From Desulfovibrio ferrophilus (GTDB lineage Bacteria; Desulfobacterota; Desulfovibrionia; Desulfovibrionales; Desulfovibrionaceae): DNA of 64,000 nt. The stretch spans positions 2,748,905 to 2,812,904 of the forward strand of contig NZ_AP017378.1 in the NCBI RefSeq assembly GCF_003966735.1, in the 5' to 3' direction. This document shows positions 1-12,021 of this stretch, one piece after another. Each line of letters begins with the position of its first letter. The first letter of the stretch is position 1. The translations under genes and the position numbers were made by a program. A model generated the notes under the pieces. The model was not told the origin of the DNA and made no database searches. It was given only the letters and a program-made list of their open reading frames with translations.

Positions 1-293
1 ACAGTCATCTTCTCCTTGAGCTCGGGATAGACGTCCTGCTCTTCAATAATGGCCTCCAGGGGCTTGCGGGCCTGAACAATTGCAGCGATGGAGCGGAAGC
101 GTTCCTCAAGAAATCCCCCCGCTGCCGAAGCCGCCATTTCCTTGGTTGTCCCCTGGCGCTCAATGAGGATGGTTGCCGAGGATTGATACAAGGAGTCCAG
201 GGATACAGTGACCCCGATGGTCAGGAACGCGCACACACACAAAGGAATGGCGATGTACATGCGTCTTCTGCAGATGAAGGTCAGTATTTGCAT
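1..293 (-). CDS. Wzz-like polysaccharide chain-length determinant, N-terminal part (runs off window)
   Basis: Reading leftward from an ATG at 293 gives an open frame to the window edge (about 97 residues). A short cytoplasmic N-terminus rich in Arg is followed by one hydrophobic segment (about residues 12-32) and then a periplasmic stretch with 'SATILIERQ', typical of the Wzz/GNVR polysaccharide co-polymerase family, which sets polymer length in Wzy-dependent export. It lies 30 bases downstream of the beta-barrel gene and is co-oriented with the Wza-like gene, forming an export operon. Family assignment rests on a partial protein plus context. Confidence 0.7.
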   Translation of the reverse strand, partial: MQILTFICRRRMYIAIPLCVCAFLTIGVTVSLDSLYQSSATILIERQGTTKEMAASAAGGFLEERFRSIAAIVQARKPLEAIIEEQDVYPELKEKMT

Positions 294-323
294 AATTATT
301 GATCCGGGCTCAATGGCCGCTGA

Positions 324-1793
324 CTATTGTAAAAACGTCCAGGAAAATCCGATAAAAGCCTGGTTCCGCTCATCTTTCTGATCTGTCTCCCTGTCCTTGG
401 TACTGGTGTAGGCATAGCCCAGACTGACATCGACCTGCTCACTGATGCGGTAGCGCAACTCCGTATCGAACTTTGCGGCGCGGTTACGCTTCAGGCTGAC
501 GTATCCCTTGGTCTCGGCACTATTGGCCATGGCCGTGGCTCGAAGCGTCAGGCGGTCCGTCAATTGCCGAGACACACTCACCCGGGCCAGCATTCGGCGC
601 ATATTCTCGCCCTGTGTGCTTCCCACCGGCTCCAGCGCCAAAGAGGCTTTCAGGGTATTGCGTTCCGTCATCCAGGTTGCAGAAGCCGAAGCCACCGCGT
701 CCACGGACCGCTCATCGACTTCTCCGCCAGCGACGTCGAACGAGGAATCGCTCACGGCGCCACCCGCCTGCCCTGAGACTGTCAGCGTATCACTGAGCCT
801 GTATGTGAGCCCAAGCGTTGCCTGATGCACCCGCTGGGTTCCTTCACGATAATCATATTGCTTTGTCCGAATCTCGCTCGCAGTGACGAGACGTCGGCTC
901 AGTCCATGCTCCCAGCGCAACGTCAGCCCCAGTTCCGAACGATCGGATTCGTCATCCTCATGACGAATCGTCTGTGCCTCTCCTTCAAGGACAAGGGCAT
1001 TGCTGTCATCAGGACAGATCCTGAATCCGGCAGAGGCATCCAGCACACGACGGTCCTGCTTGTCCACCACGCTCCCGGACTCTTCAAGGGCGGACTCGAA
1101 GGAGCTGTCGAACATCGCCCCGGTCGAGGCAAACGCCGAAGTTCGGGGAGACAATGCATACGACAGATCAAGGGAATACTGTTGGTTGATATGATCGTAT
1201 TGTGTGTTGCCGGGATAGGAATAACTCTCCAGGTCTGCCCGAAGGGCAAGGGTTGTGCGTTCTGCTTCGTGCACAGCCTCAAGACTCGGTCGAATCAGCC
1301 CCTCCCAACCGGAATCACCCTTGAAAAAAATATTGTCATCCCAACCCAGACGCATCTCCACCGCAGGGGTGAACTCCAGGCCCGGAACATCATCCAGCTT
1401 CCAGGGGCTGACCTTTGGGCGGTCCGCAACCGCCTTGGCGCTCCCACCTGCCGATCCTGGAGCATCTTCAAGCAACGAGGCATACACATATCCCAGCATG
1501 GGAGGGCTACCTTCATTCTGCGCTGGCCGCGAAACCACCAGCCACTGCCCGCCGTGCGATGTCGCCACCACACGGTCTCCGGGATACAGCACCAGTTGCC
1601 GAGGCGTATCGATGGACGGTCCCTTGCGGACATTGGCCGCCTCGCGCACGACCATCAGCCTTCCTGCTTCGGCTTGCGCGACTGCCGGAAGCAGCAGACT
1701 CAAGACAAGCACGACCACAAAATTCCAGCCCAGGAACATCACCGGAGAGACGACGCTCCCCGGCTTGCTGTGGATGTTCCGGGGCAAGCTCAC
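324..1793 (-). CDS. Outer membrane beta-barrel protein with N-terminal SH3-like domain
   Basis: 489 aa. A hydrophobic segment near residues 20-42 ending 'AVAQA' looks like a signal peptide with a longer than usual n-region. Residues about 44-108 resemble a bacterial SH3 domain ('VREAANVRKGPS', 'GDRVVATSHGGQWLVV'). The remainder is a run of alternating polar/hydrophobic strands ending in an aromatic residue ('AFIGFSWTFLQ'), as expected of an outer membrane barrel of the EpsL/BBP2 sort. Its start overlaps the end of the Wza-like gene by 4 bases (ATGA), so the two are translationally coupled. Role inferred from position: an outer membrane component of exopolysaccharide secretion. Confidence 0.75.
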   Translation of the reverse strand: MSLPRNIHSKPGSVVSPVMFLGWNFVVVLVLSLLLPAVAQAEAGRLMVVREAANVRKGPSIDTPRQLVLYPGDRVVATSHGGQWLVVSRPAQNEGSPPMLGYVYASLLEDAPGSAGGSAKAVADRPKVSPWKLDDVPGLEFTPAVEMRLGWDDNIFFKGDSGWEGLIRPSLEAVHEAERTTLALRADLESYSYPGNTQYDHINQQYSLDLSYALSPRTSAFASTGAMFDSSFESALEESGSVVDKQDRRVLDASAGFRICPDDSNALVLEGEAQTIRHEDDESDRSELGLTLRWEHGLSRRLVTASEIRTKQYDYREGTQRVHQATLGLTYRLSDTLTVSGQAGGAVSDSSFDVAGGEVDERSVDAVASASATWMTERNTLKASLALEPVGSTQGENMRRMLARVSVSRQLTDRLTLRATAMANSAETKGYVSLKRNRAAKFDTELRYRISEQVDVSLGYAYTSTKDRETDQKDERNQAFIGFSWTFLQ

Positions 1794-6121: not shown

Positions 6122-7660
6122 CTATTTTTTGTCTCCAATCCAACGGAGCTCGTACAGATCAGACCTCCGACTCGTGACGTTGCGCACGCTGCCCTGAGTG
6201 CGCAGCTCCTTGAGCAGGTCAAGGTCGACATCGGTGATCAGGGTTGTCTCGATACCCGGCGTGACCTCTGAGGCAATGGCATCATGGGGGAAGGGAAAAT
6301 CCGACGGCGTGAAGATGGCGGATTGGGAATATTGGATACCCATGGTCTCGACCTTGGGGATATTGCCGACACTGCCGGAGATGGCAACAAAGCATTCGTT
6401 TTCGATGGCCCGGGCCTGGGCGCAACGCCTGACCCGCAGATAACCATTCTTGGTATCGGTCCAAAACGGTACCAGCAGCATCTTCATGCCCTTCAGGGTC
6501 TGCAGTCGCGCCAACTCCGGGAACTCAACATCGTAACAGATGAGTATCCCGATTTTGCCGACGTCGGTGTCAAAAACCTTCAGGTCATGGCCGCCGGTAA
6601 AGCCCCAATGGGCATCTTCTTCCGGAGTGATATGCAGCTTGGTCTGGCTGTCCCAGGTTCCGTCGCGGCGGCACAGAAAGCTGACATTGTGCAGGGTGCC
6701 GTCTTCCTGAAGTTGGGGCACGCTACCGGTGACGATATTGATGTTGTAGCTCAGTGCCATTTCCGTCATGGCCTGGCGCATGCCTGCGGTGTGCTCCGCC
6801 AAATGGCGCATGGCATCGGACGGGCTCATCCCCTCGTACATGCGGATGAGAGGAGCGTTGAACAACTCCGGAAAGAGAATGATGTCCGACTTGTAGGCAC
6901 TGACCGTGTCCACGAAGAATTCCACTTGCTGCATGAAGTCATCGAATGAGTCAAAGCGACGCATCTCCCACTGGACCACGCCGAGACGGGCAATGGATTT
7001 GGTCCGCCCCACCAGCCGCGTCCTCTTCTGATAGTAGATGTTGATCCACTCAAGAAGCACGGCGTTGCCGCGAGACATGTGATCACCGGGCCAGTAGTCG
7101 TCGAGCAGGTTGCGAACGTGGAAATCGTTGGACAGCTGGAAGGTGAGCACAGAATCGTAGATTTCGCGGTTCTTGACCTTCAGGATGTATTCCTGCGGCG
7201 TCATCTCGGTTGAGACCTTGTGATAGCCGGGGATGCGCCCGCCAAGCAGGATGCCCTTGAGATTGAGATTCTCGGCGATTTCCTTACGCGCATCATACAA
7301 GCGACGACCAAGCCGCATCCCCCGGTATTCCGGGTCCACGAAGACCTCAATGCCGTAGAGATAGTCGCCTTCCGGGTCGTGGGACTTGAAGGTTCCGTTG
7401 GCGATAATCTGATTATAGGTGTGCTGATCACCAAAAAGGCTGAAATCGATAATCATGGACAAGGCGATGCCCACAGGCTCTCCATTGTCCTCGATGCACA
7501 CCTGCCCTTCGGGAAAGAGGCTGATCAGCAGAGCGATCTGCTCCCGCGTCCAGGGAGTGTCGAGCCCTTTGTAGACCCGCTTGTAGATACCACGCAGAGC
7601 TTCGTAGTCGTCCATGCGCAGATTGCGGGTTTGCAATTTGTGTTCAGTCTCTTCGATCAT
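6122..7660 (-). CDS. GNAT acetyltransferase fused to carbon-nitrogen hydrolase
   Basis: About 512 aa. The N-terminal ~200 residues are a GNAT domain with the acetyl-CoA loop 'YRGMRLGRRLYDARKEI'. The C-terminal ~290 residues are a nitrilase-superfamily hydrolase with the Glu-Lys-Cys triad in 'LFPELFNAP', 'TKLHITPEED' and 'GILICYDVEFPE'. This two-domain order is a known bacterial family of unknown substrate; acylation coupled to amide hydrolysis is an inference. The frame is open to 7735. The ATG at 7660 has GGAG six bases upstream, while those at 7675 and 7735 lack a ribosome site. Single-gene unit. Confidence 0.9.
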   Translation of the reverse strand: MIEETEHKLQTRNLRMDDYEALRGIYKRVYKGLDTPWTREQIALLISLFPEGQVCIEDNGEPVGIALSMIIDFSLFGDQHTYNQIIANGTFKSHDPEGDYLYGIEVFVDPEYRGMRLGRRLYDARKEIAENLNLKGILLGGRIPGYHKVSTEMTPQEYILKVKNREIYDSVLTFQLSNDFHVRNLLDDYWPGDHMSRGNAVLLEWINIYYQKRTRLVGRTKSIARLGVVQWEMRRFDSFDDFMQQVEFFVDTVSAYKSDIILFPELFNAPLIRMYEGMSPSDAMRHLAEHTAGMRQAMTEMALSYNINIVTGSVPQLQEDGTLHNVSFLCRRDGTWDSQTKLHITPEEDAHWGFTGGHDLKVFDTDVGKIGILICYDVEFPELARLQTLKGMKMLLVPFWTDTKNGYLRVRRCAQARAIENECFVAISGSVGNIPKVETMGIQYSQSAIFTPSDFPFPHDAIASEVTPGIETTLITDVDLDLLKELRTQGSVRNVTSRRSDLYELRWIGDKK

Positions 7661-7735
7661 GATCGGCTCCGTCATTATCCGATTTGTATGTCCGCGAGAA
7701 AGAGCCTGGCACACGTCGTTAGCACTCTCACTCAT

Positions 7736-8368: not shown

Positions 8369-8643
8369 TAAAGCAATTTTTCGAGTTTATGTAGTGTTTC
8401 TGCTGCCTCTTTTAATAATTTTGTTTCATCAGGATCACCTTCATCTCTCATCGATGGGTCGTCGTAGTAATCCTCAACATAATAGTACAGGTTGTTAAGT
8501 GCTTCATATTCTTCGTGTTTCATCTTTCCTGAGCATCTTAAATATATTATAGTGTATACATTCGCAAAATCTTTTGCATTAATTCTGTGCCTAGTAAAGC
8601 ACCTAATTATATCAATATATGTATATATATGCGAGCCTACCAT
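8368..8643 (-). CDS. Orphan colicin-immunity-like small protein
   Basis: 91 aa, acidic C-terminal half. The pattern 'YIDIIRCF...INAKDFANVY' followed by 'MKHEEYEALNNLYYYVEDYY' and 'DPSMRDEGDPDETKLLKEA' resembles the colicin-immunity-type family (small acidic helical proteins). AGGAAGG lies just upstream of the ATG at 8643. No toxin or bacteriocin gene is adjacent, so it may be a stray immunity gene from a lost polymorphic-toxin or bacteriocin cassette. It is flanked on both sides by short repeats and is AT-rich, consistent with acquisition by transfer. Family call is by eye. Confidence 0.65.
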   Translation of the reverse strand: MVGSHIYTYIDIIRCFTRHRINAKDFANVYTIIYLRCSGKMKHEEYEALNNLYYYVEDYYDDPSMRDEGDPDETKLLKEAAETLHKLEKLL

Positions 8644-9106: not shown

Positions 9107-9405
9107 GCCCTGACGCACGTAGTTCGCACCACGTCGCGGACCGTCTTTTTGCTGAATCGCGCCCTTATTGTCAACATCTTTTTATCATGAACCGCTTGAT
9201 TTTCCCAGTCACTACCTGTCCCGTCAACAGCAGCACCGGGTGCGGCAGCGGTTCGTTCACGTCCCCATCACTTCAAGAGGGGCATTTTTCATCCTCATTC
9301 CCCATCCCGTAATCATCCCCATGCCACAAATCATCCAATGGTTTTCCAAACGCCCAAGAACTGCTAAAGTATATAACTAATAATCCCAAATTGCTGTGAG
9401 GATAT

Positions 9406-12021
9406 ATGCCCGCCATCCGCAAAATCGAAGTCATCCCAGGGGTTCACTGGGTGGAGATTCGCGAAGCCGATCTCTATATCCTCTGCGGTTGTCCGGCCGA
9501 CAGTGTGAAGCATCTCATGAAACGGGGTCTGATCATCCCCGAAATCAAAGACGGAAAACAAACCGAAACCGGCCCCAACGTCATTCTGCTCTCGGACACC
9601 CTGATCCAGAATGGAGCCTTCTCCAATCTTGCGGAATTTCCCGTGTTGCAGATGCTCTACCGCCAGGGGATCATCCTGCCCGGACATCCTAACAATACAG
9701 GGCAAAAGCCCCTGCTCATGGGCTCTGAATCGCAGGTCCAATCGCAACTGCGCTATATCCACCGAGGCAATTACGGCCTGTTCAACGAACAGGAGCTGAT
9801 CGCCACGGGCCTGAGCCCCGACCGGGTCAATGCCGAAATGCGCATCAAGCTACGCTTCGCTTTCGATGACATTAAAAAACCCGAGGAATTTCTGGACACC
9901 CTGTCCATCGGCGAGACCTGCGTTGAAGTCCGCAACGGGGTCGGCATCTGTCGCAAGGGACACAACCTGTACGAATTCTCCTACGGCGATGAAACCGTGG
10001 AAGTGGATCTCCACCTGCCCCAGGGCACACAGTATCCTTCACCCTACCCCCTGTGCTTCCAGGATGTCGGGCGCGGCTATTTCGACATCATCCATTCCGG
10101 TGACGGAGACGGCTGGGACGTCAACCGACCGGCCATGTCCAGCGTGATCATGTATCAGGGCGAGGTCTACCTGATCGACGCTGGCCCCAACATCCAGCAC
10201 ACCCTTTCCGCACTGGGCATCGGGGTCAACGAAATCCGGGGCATCTTCCACACCCATGCCCACGATGACCATTTCTGTGGCCTGACCACACTCATGCAGG
10301 CCGACCACCGCATCCTGCATTTCGCAACCCCACACGTGCGCGCTTCCGTGGCCAAGAAATGGGCGGCCCTGCTGGCCCGACCCGAGAGCGAGTTCGCCTC
10401 CTACTTCAAACTGCACGACCTGATCGAGGACCAGTGGAACGATGTCCTGGGGCTGGAAGTCAAACCGGTTTTCTCGCCACACCCCGTGGAAACCACCATC
10501 ATGTTCTTCCGCGCCCGGTCCGAAAGCGGCTACCGCACCTACGCCCACCTGGCGGACATCTCCAGCCGCCGGGTGCTGGACAACTTCCTGACCGACGACG
10601 ATAACGCCTCCGGCCTTTCCAGGTCGCTCTACGACAAGGTCTGGAAAGATTACCTGACCTGCGTAGACGTCAAGAAGCTCGATATCGGTGGGGGGCTCAT
10701 CCACGGCGAAGCCCAAGACTTCAGCCAGGACAACTCGGGCAAAATCATCCTCTCGCATACAGCCCGCCCGCTGAATGATACGGAGCGTGAAATCGGCTCC
10801 GGGGCGTCCTTCGGCATGGTCGACAGGCTCATCGAGGGCGACCAGGATTTCCTGCGTGCCAGCGCCTACCGACAGCTGCGCCGCAATCTGCCCGTGGTCA
10901 AAGACCATGAATTGCGGATGCTCATGAACAGCGAAATGATCAGCCTGAACCCGGGATCCATCCTGCTGCGCCGGGGTCAGACACACACGGATGTCTACCT
11001 CATGGTCACAGGGGTGACAGAGCGCATCGACAGCGAAAAGGGCCTGTCCAACCAATGTTCCGCCGGATCACTGCTGGCCGAACTGTCCGGCCTGGCGGGC
11101 CAGCCCTGCGCCGCCACTTACCGGGCCTTGACCCATGTCCGCGCCCTGCGCCTGCCTGCTGTTTTGTTCAAACAGGTCATTGCGGACAACAAGCTCGAAG
11201 CCTACTTCGACAACCTGCGCACCTGGCGCGACTTCCTGCGCCAGACCTGGCTGTTTGGCGGGGCCACCTCCTCGACAGTGCAGGATAAAATCGCAGGCAG
11301 CATGCTCTCCCTCAAATTCAAACCGGGGCAGGCCCTGGGGCACGGCACTGCCCCCGCCATCTACATCATCCACAAGGGGCAGGCCGAAGTCCGCTACGAG
11401 GATCGAGTGGTGGAGACCATCGGCCCCGGCGAATTCATCGGCGAGGGGTTCGTGCTGTTCAAAACCCCCTGCATCACAACAGGTATCGCCGTGACCGAAC
11501 TAGACGTACTGCACATTCACGCCGGCATCCTGCGCGATGTTCCTGTGGTGCGCTGGAAACTGTTCGAGACCTTCCGCCGACGCATGCGATCCATCGTGGA
11601 AGCCACGGAAACCGGGCAAAGCATCTTTACCTGGCGCGAGGAATACAGCACGGGCGTGCCCAAGCAGAATGACGACCACAGGGAGCTGCTTGAAAAAGCC
11701 GAAGAGGTCCATAAATGCATCACCGAAAACAAGGGGCAGGGGGCCATCGGCGAGGCTCTGGATGAACTGATTCACTACACCACGGAGCACTTCAGCCGTG
11801 AGCTTGGCTGGTACAAGGACGAGGATTTCCCGGAACTGGAACACCACGCTCTGCTGCACGGCCAACTGTTGAATGAAATCCGCACCAAGGCCATGCGCAT
11901 CAAGGCGGGTATCCCCAACCCGGATGTGGAATTCGTGACCTTCTTCAAGAACTGGCTCATCGACCACATCATGACCGAAGACCGCAAATTCGGCAGGCTA
12001 ATGGAATTCAAGCAGGGCTAG
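9406..12021 (+). CDS. Multidomain MBL-fold / double cNMP-binding / hemerythrin protein
   Basis: 871 aa, no signal peptide, so cytoplasmic. Residues 1 to about 220 are an unassigned N-terminal region. A metallo-beta-lactamase-fold domain follows with the metal motif HTHAHDDH at residues 282-289. Two cyclic-nucleotide-binding-like domains lie at about 510-600 and 634-730 ('GEFIGEGFVLF' is the phosphate-cassette-like part of the second). A C-terminal hemerythrin domain starts near residue 750, with ligand-type residues in 'QNDDHRELL', 'HYTTEHFSRE', 'ELEHHALLH' and 'WLIDHIMTEDRKF'. The combination suggests sensing of O2 or NO at a di-iron centre, controlled by a nucleotide, with a hydrolase or oxidoreductase output (inference). 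GAGGA precedes the ATG. Single gene. Confidence 0.9.
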   Translation: MPAIRKIEVIPGVHWVEIREADLYILCGCPADSVKHLMKRGLIIPEIKDGKQTETGPNVILLSDTLIQNGAFSNLAEFPVLQMLYRQGIILPGHPNNTGQKPLLMGSESQVQSQLRYIHRGNYGLFNEQELIATGLSPDRVNAEMRIKLRFAFDDIKKPEEFLDTLSIGETCVEVRNGVGICRKGHNLYEFSYGDETVEVDLHLPQGTQYPSPYPLCFQDVGRGYFDIIHSGDGDGWDVNRPAMSSVIMYQGEVYLIDAGPNIQHTLSALGIGVNEIRGIFHTHAHDDHFCGLTTLMQADHRILHFATPHVRASVAKKWAALLARPESEFASYFKLHDLIEDQWNDVLGLEVKPVFSPHPVETTIMFFRARSESGYRTYAHLADISSRRVLDNFLTDDDNASGLSRSLYDKVWKDYLTCVDVKKLDIGGGLIHGEAQDFSQDNSGKIILSHTARPLNDTEREIGSGASFGMVDRLIEGDQDFLRASAYRQLRRNLPVVKDHELRMLMNSEMISLNPGSILLRRGQTHTDVYLMVTGVTERIDSEKGLSNQCSAGSLLAELSGLAGQPCAATYRALTHVRALRLPAVLFKQVIADNKLEAYFDNLRTWRDFLRQTWLFGGATSSTVQDKIAGSMLSLKFKPGQALGHGTAPAIYIIHKGQAEVRYEDRVVETIGPGEFIGEGFVLFKTPCITTGIAVTELDVLHIHAGILRDVPVVRWKLFETFRRRMRSIVEATETGQSIFTWREEYSTGVPKQNDDHRELLEKAEEVHKCITENKGQGAIGEALDELIHYTTEHFSRELGWYKDEDFPELEHHALLHGQLLNEIRTKAMRIKAGIPNPDVEFVTFFKNWLIDHIMTEDRKFGRLMEFKQG

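Follow-up and report, generated by a model that had tools for sequence, protein, structure and literature searches.

What does a protein sense, and on what does it act, when it joins a metallo-β-lactamase (MBL) fold to two cyclic-nucleotide-binding (CNB) domains and a hemerythrin (Hr)? The question is raised by an intact open reading frame of 871 amino acids in the 64,000-nucleotide stretch of Desulfovibrio ferrophilus DNA analysed here (the window), which belongs to a genome of 3.7 Mb that is 99.98% complete. The reading that we tentatively favour, and to which we give slightly less than an even chance, is that of a one-component signalling enzyme, an Hr-gated MBL phosphodiesterase whose substrate would be a signalling nucleotide, most probably a 3',5'-cyclic mononucleotide (cNMP).

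Layout, genomic setting and relatives

Comparison of the translation with Pfam and NCBIfam models confirmed the original prediction that an MBL domain, two cNMP domains and a hemerythrin are united in one protein, with each model above its cut-off: Lactamase_B (36.5 bits against 22.7), Lactamase_B_2 (32.6 against 27), cNMP_binding in two stretches (71.8 against 27.5) and Hemerythrin (31.7 against 25.3) in Pfam, and bacteriohemerythrin NF033749 (94.9 against 84) in NCBIfam. The full-length AlphaFold2 model, built on 53 sequences, reached a mean pLDDT of 89.6 and a pTM of 0.88. The layout runs from a predicted degenerate MBL through a putatively active MBL, CNB-A and CNB-B to the hemerythrin, with the following features.

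9398..9401 (+): GAGG run, Shine-Dalgarno-like, 4 bases before the ATG (read from the sequence)
9406..12021 (+): intact 871-aa ORF with ATG start (ORF reading, Pfam, full-length relatives)
9406..10065 (+): aa 1-220, N-terminal domain with the predicted fold of an MBL without metals (AlphaFold2 models, Foldseek, VIA-align)
10066..10845 (+): putative catalytic MBL domain, aa 221-480 (Pfam Lactamase_B above cut-off; Apyc1 fold match)
10255..10272 (+): HxHxDH metal motif, H284-A-H286-D-D288-H289 (invariant, 88/88)
10480..10482 (+): metal ligand H359, in SPHPVET (88/88)
10555..10557 (+): bridging metal ligand D384, in AHLADIS (88/88)
10702..10704 (+): invariant H433, in GGGxIHG, between motifs IV and V (88/88)
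10756..10758 (+): metal ligand H451, in LSHTARP (88/88)
10942..11190 (+): CNB-A, aa 513-595, with ribose Glu E559 and with C568 at the position of the phosphate Arg (Pfam, alignment)
11242..11595 (+): CNB-B, aa 613-730, with ribose Glu E680 and with C689 at the position of the phosphate Arg (second Pfam stretch, alignment)
11542..11613 (+): connecting helix from CNB-B to Hr, aa 713-736 (AlphaFold2 model)
11614..12003 (+): bacteriohemerythrin domain, aa 737-866 (NCBIfam 94.9 bits, DcrH-Hr fold, ligands)

The gene is not part of an operon, as both flanking genes lie on the opposite strand, and a scan for promoters and terminators around it gave a signal at chance level. Elsewhere in the window, a small ORF at 8371-8643 (-) matches Colicin_immun PF09204 (45.9 bits against a cut-off of 22), and a protein encoded at 6122-7735 (-) combines a GNAT acetyltransferase stretch with a CN_hydrolase domain. 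Positions 19000-64000 hold a long series of glycosyltransferase-, sugar-nucleotide- and sulfotransferase-like ORFs, a run that, with the translations judged by eye, resembles a surface-glycan or flagellin-glycosylation cluster. Several further hemerythrins are encoded in the genome.

A search of genome contigs with an alignment query recovered at least 550 relatives, of which the best 80 were kept, and a single-sequence query of the same contigs found none; conservation counts were taken over 88 aligned sequences. A layout of roughly 870 aa is common to most of the best 80 of the at least 550 loci, which come from Desulfobacterota, Magnetospirillum and allies, Magnetococcales, Gallionella/Nitrosomonadales and Campylobacterota, with further members in Nitrospirota, Nitrospinota and Planctomycetota. 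Among 297 genomes drawn from the class, 16 contain the core (aa 1-730), mostly at full length with Hr. On the tree, the window protein stands beside a sequence labelled Desulfovibrionaceae, within a clade that also holds Humidesulfovibrio. The MBL-CNB-CNB-Hr architecture is genuine and not due to chance, since a single ORF of that layout recurs across genomes, and it defines a large conserved family, mostly of low-oxygen and magnetic bacteria. In a plasmid search, matches covered the Hr end of the protein only.

The tandem MBL half and its probable activity

The second MBL domain has both the fold of the MBL superfamily and its ligand set (HxHxDH ... H ... D ... H). The HTHAHDDH site of the original prediction corresponds to H282-H289, and alignment left no metal ligand missing in either of the two metal-binding domains on which that prediction was built (MBL 7/7, Hr 7/7 in the window protein). 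The seven MBL ligands H284, H286, D288, H289, H359, D384 and H451 are invariant in all 88 aligned relatives, as are D258 and H433. When the model of aa 225-477 was compared with known structures, the best match was Apyc1 (7u2r; Z 24.9, rmsd 2.5, 220 residues), the Apyc1 matches scoring Z 24.9, 24.8 and 23.9, followed by Brucella MBL proteins with GMP/AMP bound (23.4 and 23.1), the PhnP-family diphosphatase 6b9v (23.1) and YhfI (about 23), with PqqB and RNase Z next. RNase Z, PhnP and PqqB lie only 2-3 Z units below Apyc1. The Apyc1 sequence family PF23023 was missed in Pfam (16.3-18.4 bits against a cut-off of 50), so the likeness is one of fold and site and not of Apyc1 membership.

Apyc1 and YhfI are class II cNMP phosphodiesterases that bind two Zn at HxHxDH, form homodimers and cleave cyclic mononucleotides (PMC9117128). 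By predicted model and alignment, the window protein shares with them the MBL fold (Z 23-25, rmsd 2.5), the HxHxDH two-metal site and the remaining ligands. They are homodimers of about 245 aa without sensory domains, whereas in the window protein the partner MBL would be fused and metal-less, with CNB and Hr domains following. A PADLOC search gave only CNB cross-matches to Pycsar TIR effectors, and on that test the protein does not count as a defence protein.

The N-terminal 220 residues, unassigned in the original prediction, are now read from predicted structure as a degenerate MBL domain. They match no Pfam or PHROG family, their translation does not contain HxHxDH, and profile-profile comparison gave no similarity between them and the active MBL half, so that the relation between the two halves is one of predicted structure alone. 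Modelled separately with AlphaFold2 (pLDDT 85), the domain had Apyc1 as its top Foldseek match (3.4e-4); in VIA-align, RNase Z (Z 11.5), Apyc1 (11.4) and ELAC2 (10.2) were matched, and all 50 VIA matches listed are MBL-fold proteins. Human ELAC2 aligned over 1..475 of the full model (374 residues, rmsd 4.0, Z 20.7). Conservation over aa 1-120 equals that of the MBL core (mean majority fraction in the alignment 0.71-0.80, against 0.80 for aa 221-300), and H94, N97 and N122 are invariant. On the models, the domain is best taken for an MBL copy that has no metals and stands in tandem with the active one. Long-form tRNase Z (human ELAC2, yeast Trz1) is arranged in this way, with an inactive N-terminal copy before an active C-terminal copy; in the window protein the tandem is seen in predicted models only.

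The same likeness suggests an O2/redox-gated ribonuclease, in which the tandem MBL would cut RNA in the manner of RNase J or of long tRNase Z (ELAC2). The known fold whose match spans the two MBL domains is ELAC2 (Z about 20, 374-381 residues). RNase Z heads the VIA matches of the N-terminal domain taken singly (Z 11.5), and among NCBIfam MBL models it scores highest (46 bits). That score nevertheless lies far under the RNase Z equivalog cut-off of 293, the RNase Z motif PxKxRN is absent and the HEAT position reads LDIG. The active MBL is nearer to Apyc1 (24.9) than to RNase Z (21.9), and fusion to CNB, Hr and REC domains suits signalling better than tRNA processing. We consider a ribonuclease quite unlikely.

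A further reading dispenses with catalysis and has the MBL site bind iron and sense O2/NO beside Hr, in the manner of ODP or a flavodiiron protein. MBL-fold di-iron sensors such as ODP do exist, and the Hr gives this protein a di-iron domain in any case. The motif, however, is HxHxDH and not HxExDH, and no flavodoxin, ODP or FDP model matched in Pfam, which speaks equally against the flavodiiron-like character entertained in the original prediction; the conservation of H433 and D258 in 88/88 sequences also fits catalysis. A non-enzymatic sensor is, in our judgement, very improbable.

An MBL fold alone does not fix the substrate, and the gene neighbourhoods of the relatives bear on its identity. 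Motif and Pfam scans of neighbouring genes found no constant partner among the relatives' loci. In one Magnetococcales locus (L118), the MBL-CNB-Hr gene ends 4 bases before an ORF (L118:8623-10416) in whose product a 2Fe-2S Fer2 domain is joined to an adenylate/guanylate cyclase domain. Class III cyclase domains were matched 8 times in the window's genome, and across genomes class III cyclases occur in 16/16 with the core against 152/281 without it (p = 1e-4), although counted by genus the figures are 6/6 against 34/47 (p = 0.32). This cyclase context weakly supports cNMP as the putative substrate. An Hr-gated hydrolase of another phosphoester (c-di-GMP/pGpG, a PhnP-type cyclic phosphate diester or another MBL substrate) is the competing reading. 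Enzymes of c-di-GMP often adjoin relatives (REC-GGDEF beside L006, REC-HD beside L110, GGDEF-EAL beside L157), which leaves the substrate less settled; 46 GGDEF matches were counted in the genome of the window, and the PhnP-family protein 6b9v is itself among the close fold neighbours. Yet the lack of a constant partner tells against this alternative, adjacency is weak evidence in genomes so rich in c-di-GMP enzymes, and we know of no MBL enzyme for c-di-GMP. On balance we regard another phosphoester as unlikely.

Hemerythrin, the altered CNB pair and exchangeable inputs

The hemerythrin domain of the predicted model matches the fold of DcrH-Hr (3waq; Z 19.2, rmsd 1.8), and its ligands H758, H795, E799, H814, H818, H854 and D859 (5 His and 2 carboxylates) are all present in the window protein. 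Among the 82 Hr-bearing relatives, the set is complete in 67 and six ligands remain in 13, so that roughly one Hr domain in five is without one or more of the seven. A short hinge (aa 734-737; pLDDT < 50) lies by the connecting helix that leads from CNB-B. The idea of an O2-responsive enzyme is thereby supported in the form of a probable O2/redox-responsive enzyme, given the intact ligand sets of MBL and Hr. Hemerythrin control of second-messenger enzymes is known from Vibrio cholerae Bhr-DGC and Ferrovum Bhr-HD-GYP (PMC8846402). The window protein resembles these in the fusion of a bacteriohemerythrin to what is probably a second-messenger enzyme. In contrast to them, it has an MBL output and not GGDEF or HD-GYP, its Hr is C-terminal, and two CNB domains stand between.

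The two CNB domains are homologous to each other (hhalign 95.9%) and have the CNB fold, by the Pfam score of 71.8 bits and by Foldseek matches to PKA-R folds. The PBC Arg of a CNB pocket grips the cyclic phosphate. That residue is C568 in CNB-A and C689 in CNB-B, and among the 88 sequences an Arg is found in none for CNB-A and in 2 for CNB-B. Canonical cNMP control through CNB-A and CNB-B is unlikely on these grounds, and the proposal of a second-messenger-responsive protein found no support in that form. Joint gating of the MBL output by Hr and by cAMP/cGMP bound to the CNB domains, as first proposed, is consistent with the clear CNB fold, with a ribose Glu retained in most relatives (E559 in 81/88, E680 in 84/88) and with a distant relative (L065) that keeps the canonical Arg in both CNBs. 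Since neither domain has the phosphate Arg, a loss shared by nearly all relatives, and the second Glu of the nucleoside-binding trypanosome PKA is also absent, we hold this joint gating to be highly unlikely.

Some ligand other than cNMP may still be bound. Trypanosomatid PKA binds nucleosides, with a second Glu as its signature (PMC10959531). Its regulatory subunit, among the top Foldseek matches, is a tandem CNB likewise without the phosphate Arg, but the window protein has S561 and F682 in place of the second ribose-binding Glu that defines nucleoside specificity, and a nucleoside ligand was rejected.

The input end varies within the family. Hr is absent from L006, L060, L147, L148 and L166, and its presence or absence requires four changes on the tree; several magnetospirillum-type genomes hold one Hr-bearing and one Hr-less copy. 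In L061:1030-3684, an N-terminal REC (response-regulator receiver) precedes the same core, with no C-terminal Hr. Just downstream of the Hr-less copy in L168, a separate ORF ends, by eye, in hemerythrin-like sequence. The distant relatives L062, L063 and L065, alignable at 19-20% identity, share the N-terminal domain-MBL-CNB-CNB layout but have no Hr, and the phosphate Arg is kept in the second CNB of L062/L063 as well as in both of L065. As Hr is absent or REC substituted in these relatives, the simplest reading is that aa 1-730 would form an output module carrying attached sensors. As a separate observation, the Hr-less magnetospirilla paralogue adjoins, by eye, a large TPR protein that is CHAT-type protease-like and a trypsin-like Sel1-repeat protein, in an arrangement kept in two genomes (L167 and L168).

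Proposed mechanism and its significance

In the favoured mechanism of an Hr-gated phosphodiesterase, the output would be aa 1-477, a tandem MBL whose N-terminal copy is without metals and whose second copy has an intact phosphodiesterase site with two metals at HxHxDH. The active site of that second copy is probably completed by the first, in the role that the partner subunit plays in RNase Z and in homodimeric class II phosphodiesterases. As input, the C-terminal di-iron bacteriohemerythrin would report O2 or the iron redox state, and the CNB pair would join input to output, probably relaying a conformational change, whether or not a further small ligand takes part. The substrate would be a nucleotide phosphodiester signal, with 3',5'-cAMP/cGMP placed first on account of the fold neighbours and, weakly, of the cyclase context. 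Catalysis, substrate, the direction of O2 control and transmission through the CNBs are what we infer from sequence and models. Each kind of domain is already known; their union in a protein whose MBL has a degenerate partner and whose CNBs are arginine-less would be new. No description of an MBL-CNB-Hr combination, and no experiment on any relative, was found in the literature searched, which included few subscription papers.

A broader reading, possible although we think it doubtful, is that these proteins are widespread O2/redox-gated cyclic-nucleotide phosphodiesterases of microaerophilic, sulfate-reducing and magnetotactic bacteria, with an ELAC2-like MBL tandem as their basis, in which an ancestral CNB input for cNMP feedback was disabled and Hr took its place. 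A direct link from O2 to cNMP would follow from that reading, and we treat it with the same reserve. The arginine-less CNB pair shows that care is needed before such domains are annotated as responding to cNMP, and the tandem provides a predicted bacterial case of the ELAC2-like pairing of active and inactive MBL copies. The O2-guided behaviour of magnetospirilla and Magnetococcales involves many hemerythrins. If the proposed function is correct, a hemerythrin-controlled MBL phosphodiesterase would join Hr-DGC and Hr-HD-GYP in bacterial O2 sensing, and a candidate O2-signal enzyme would be named for these organisms.
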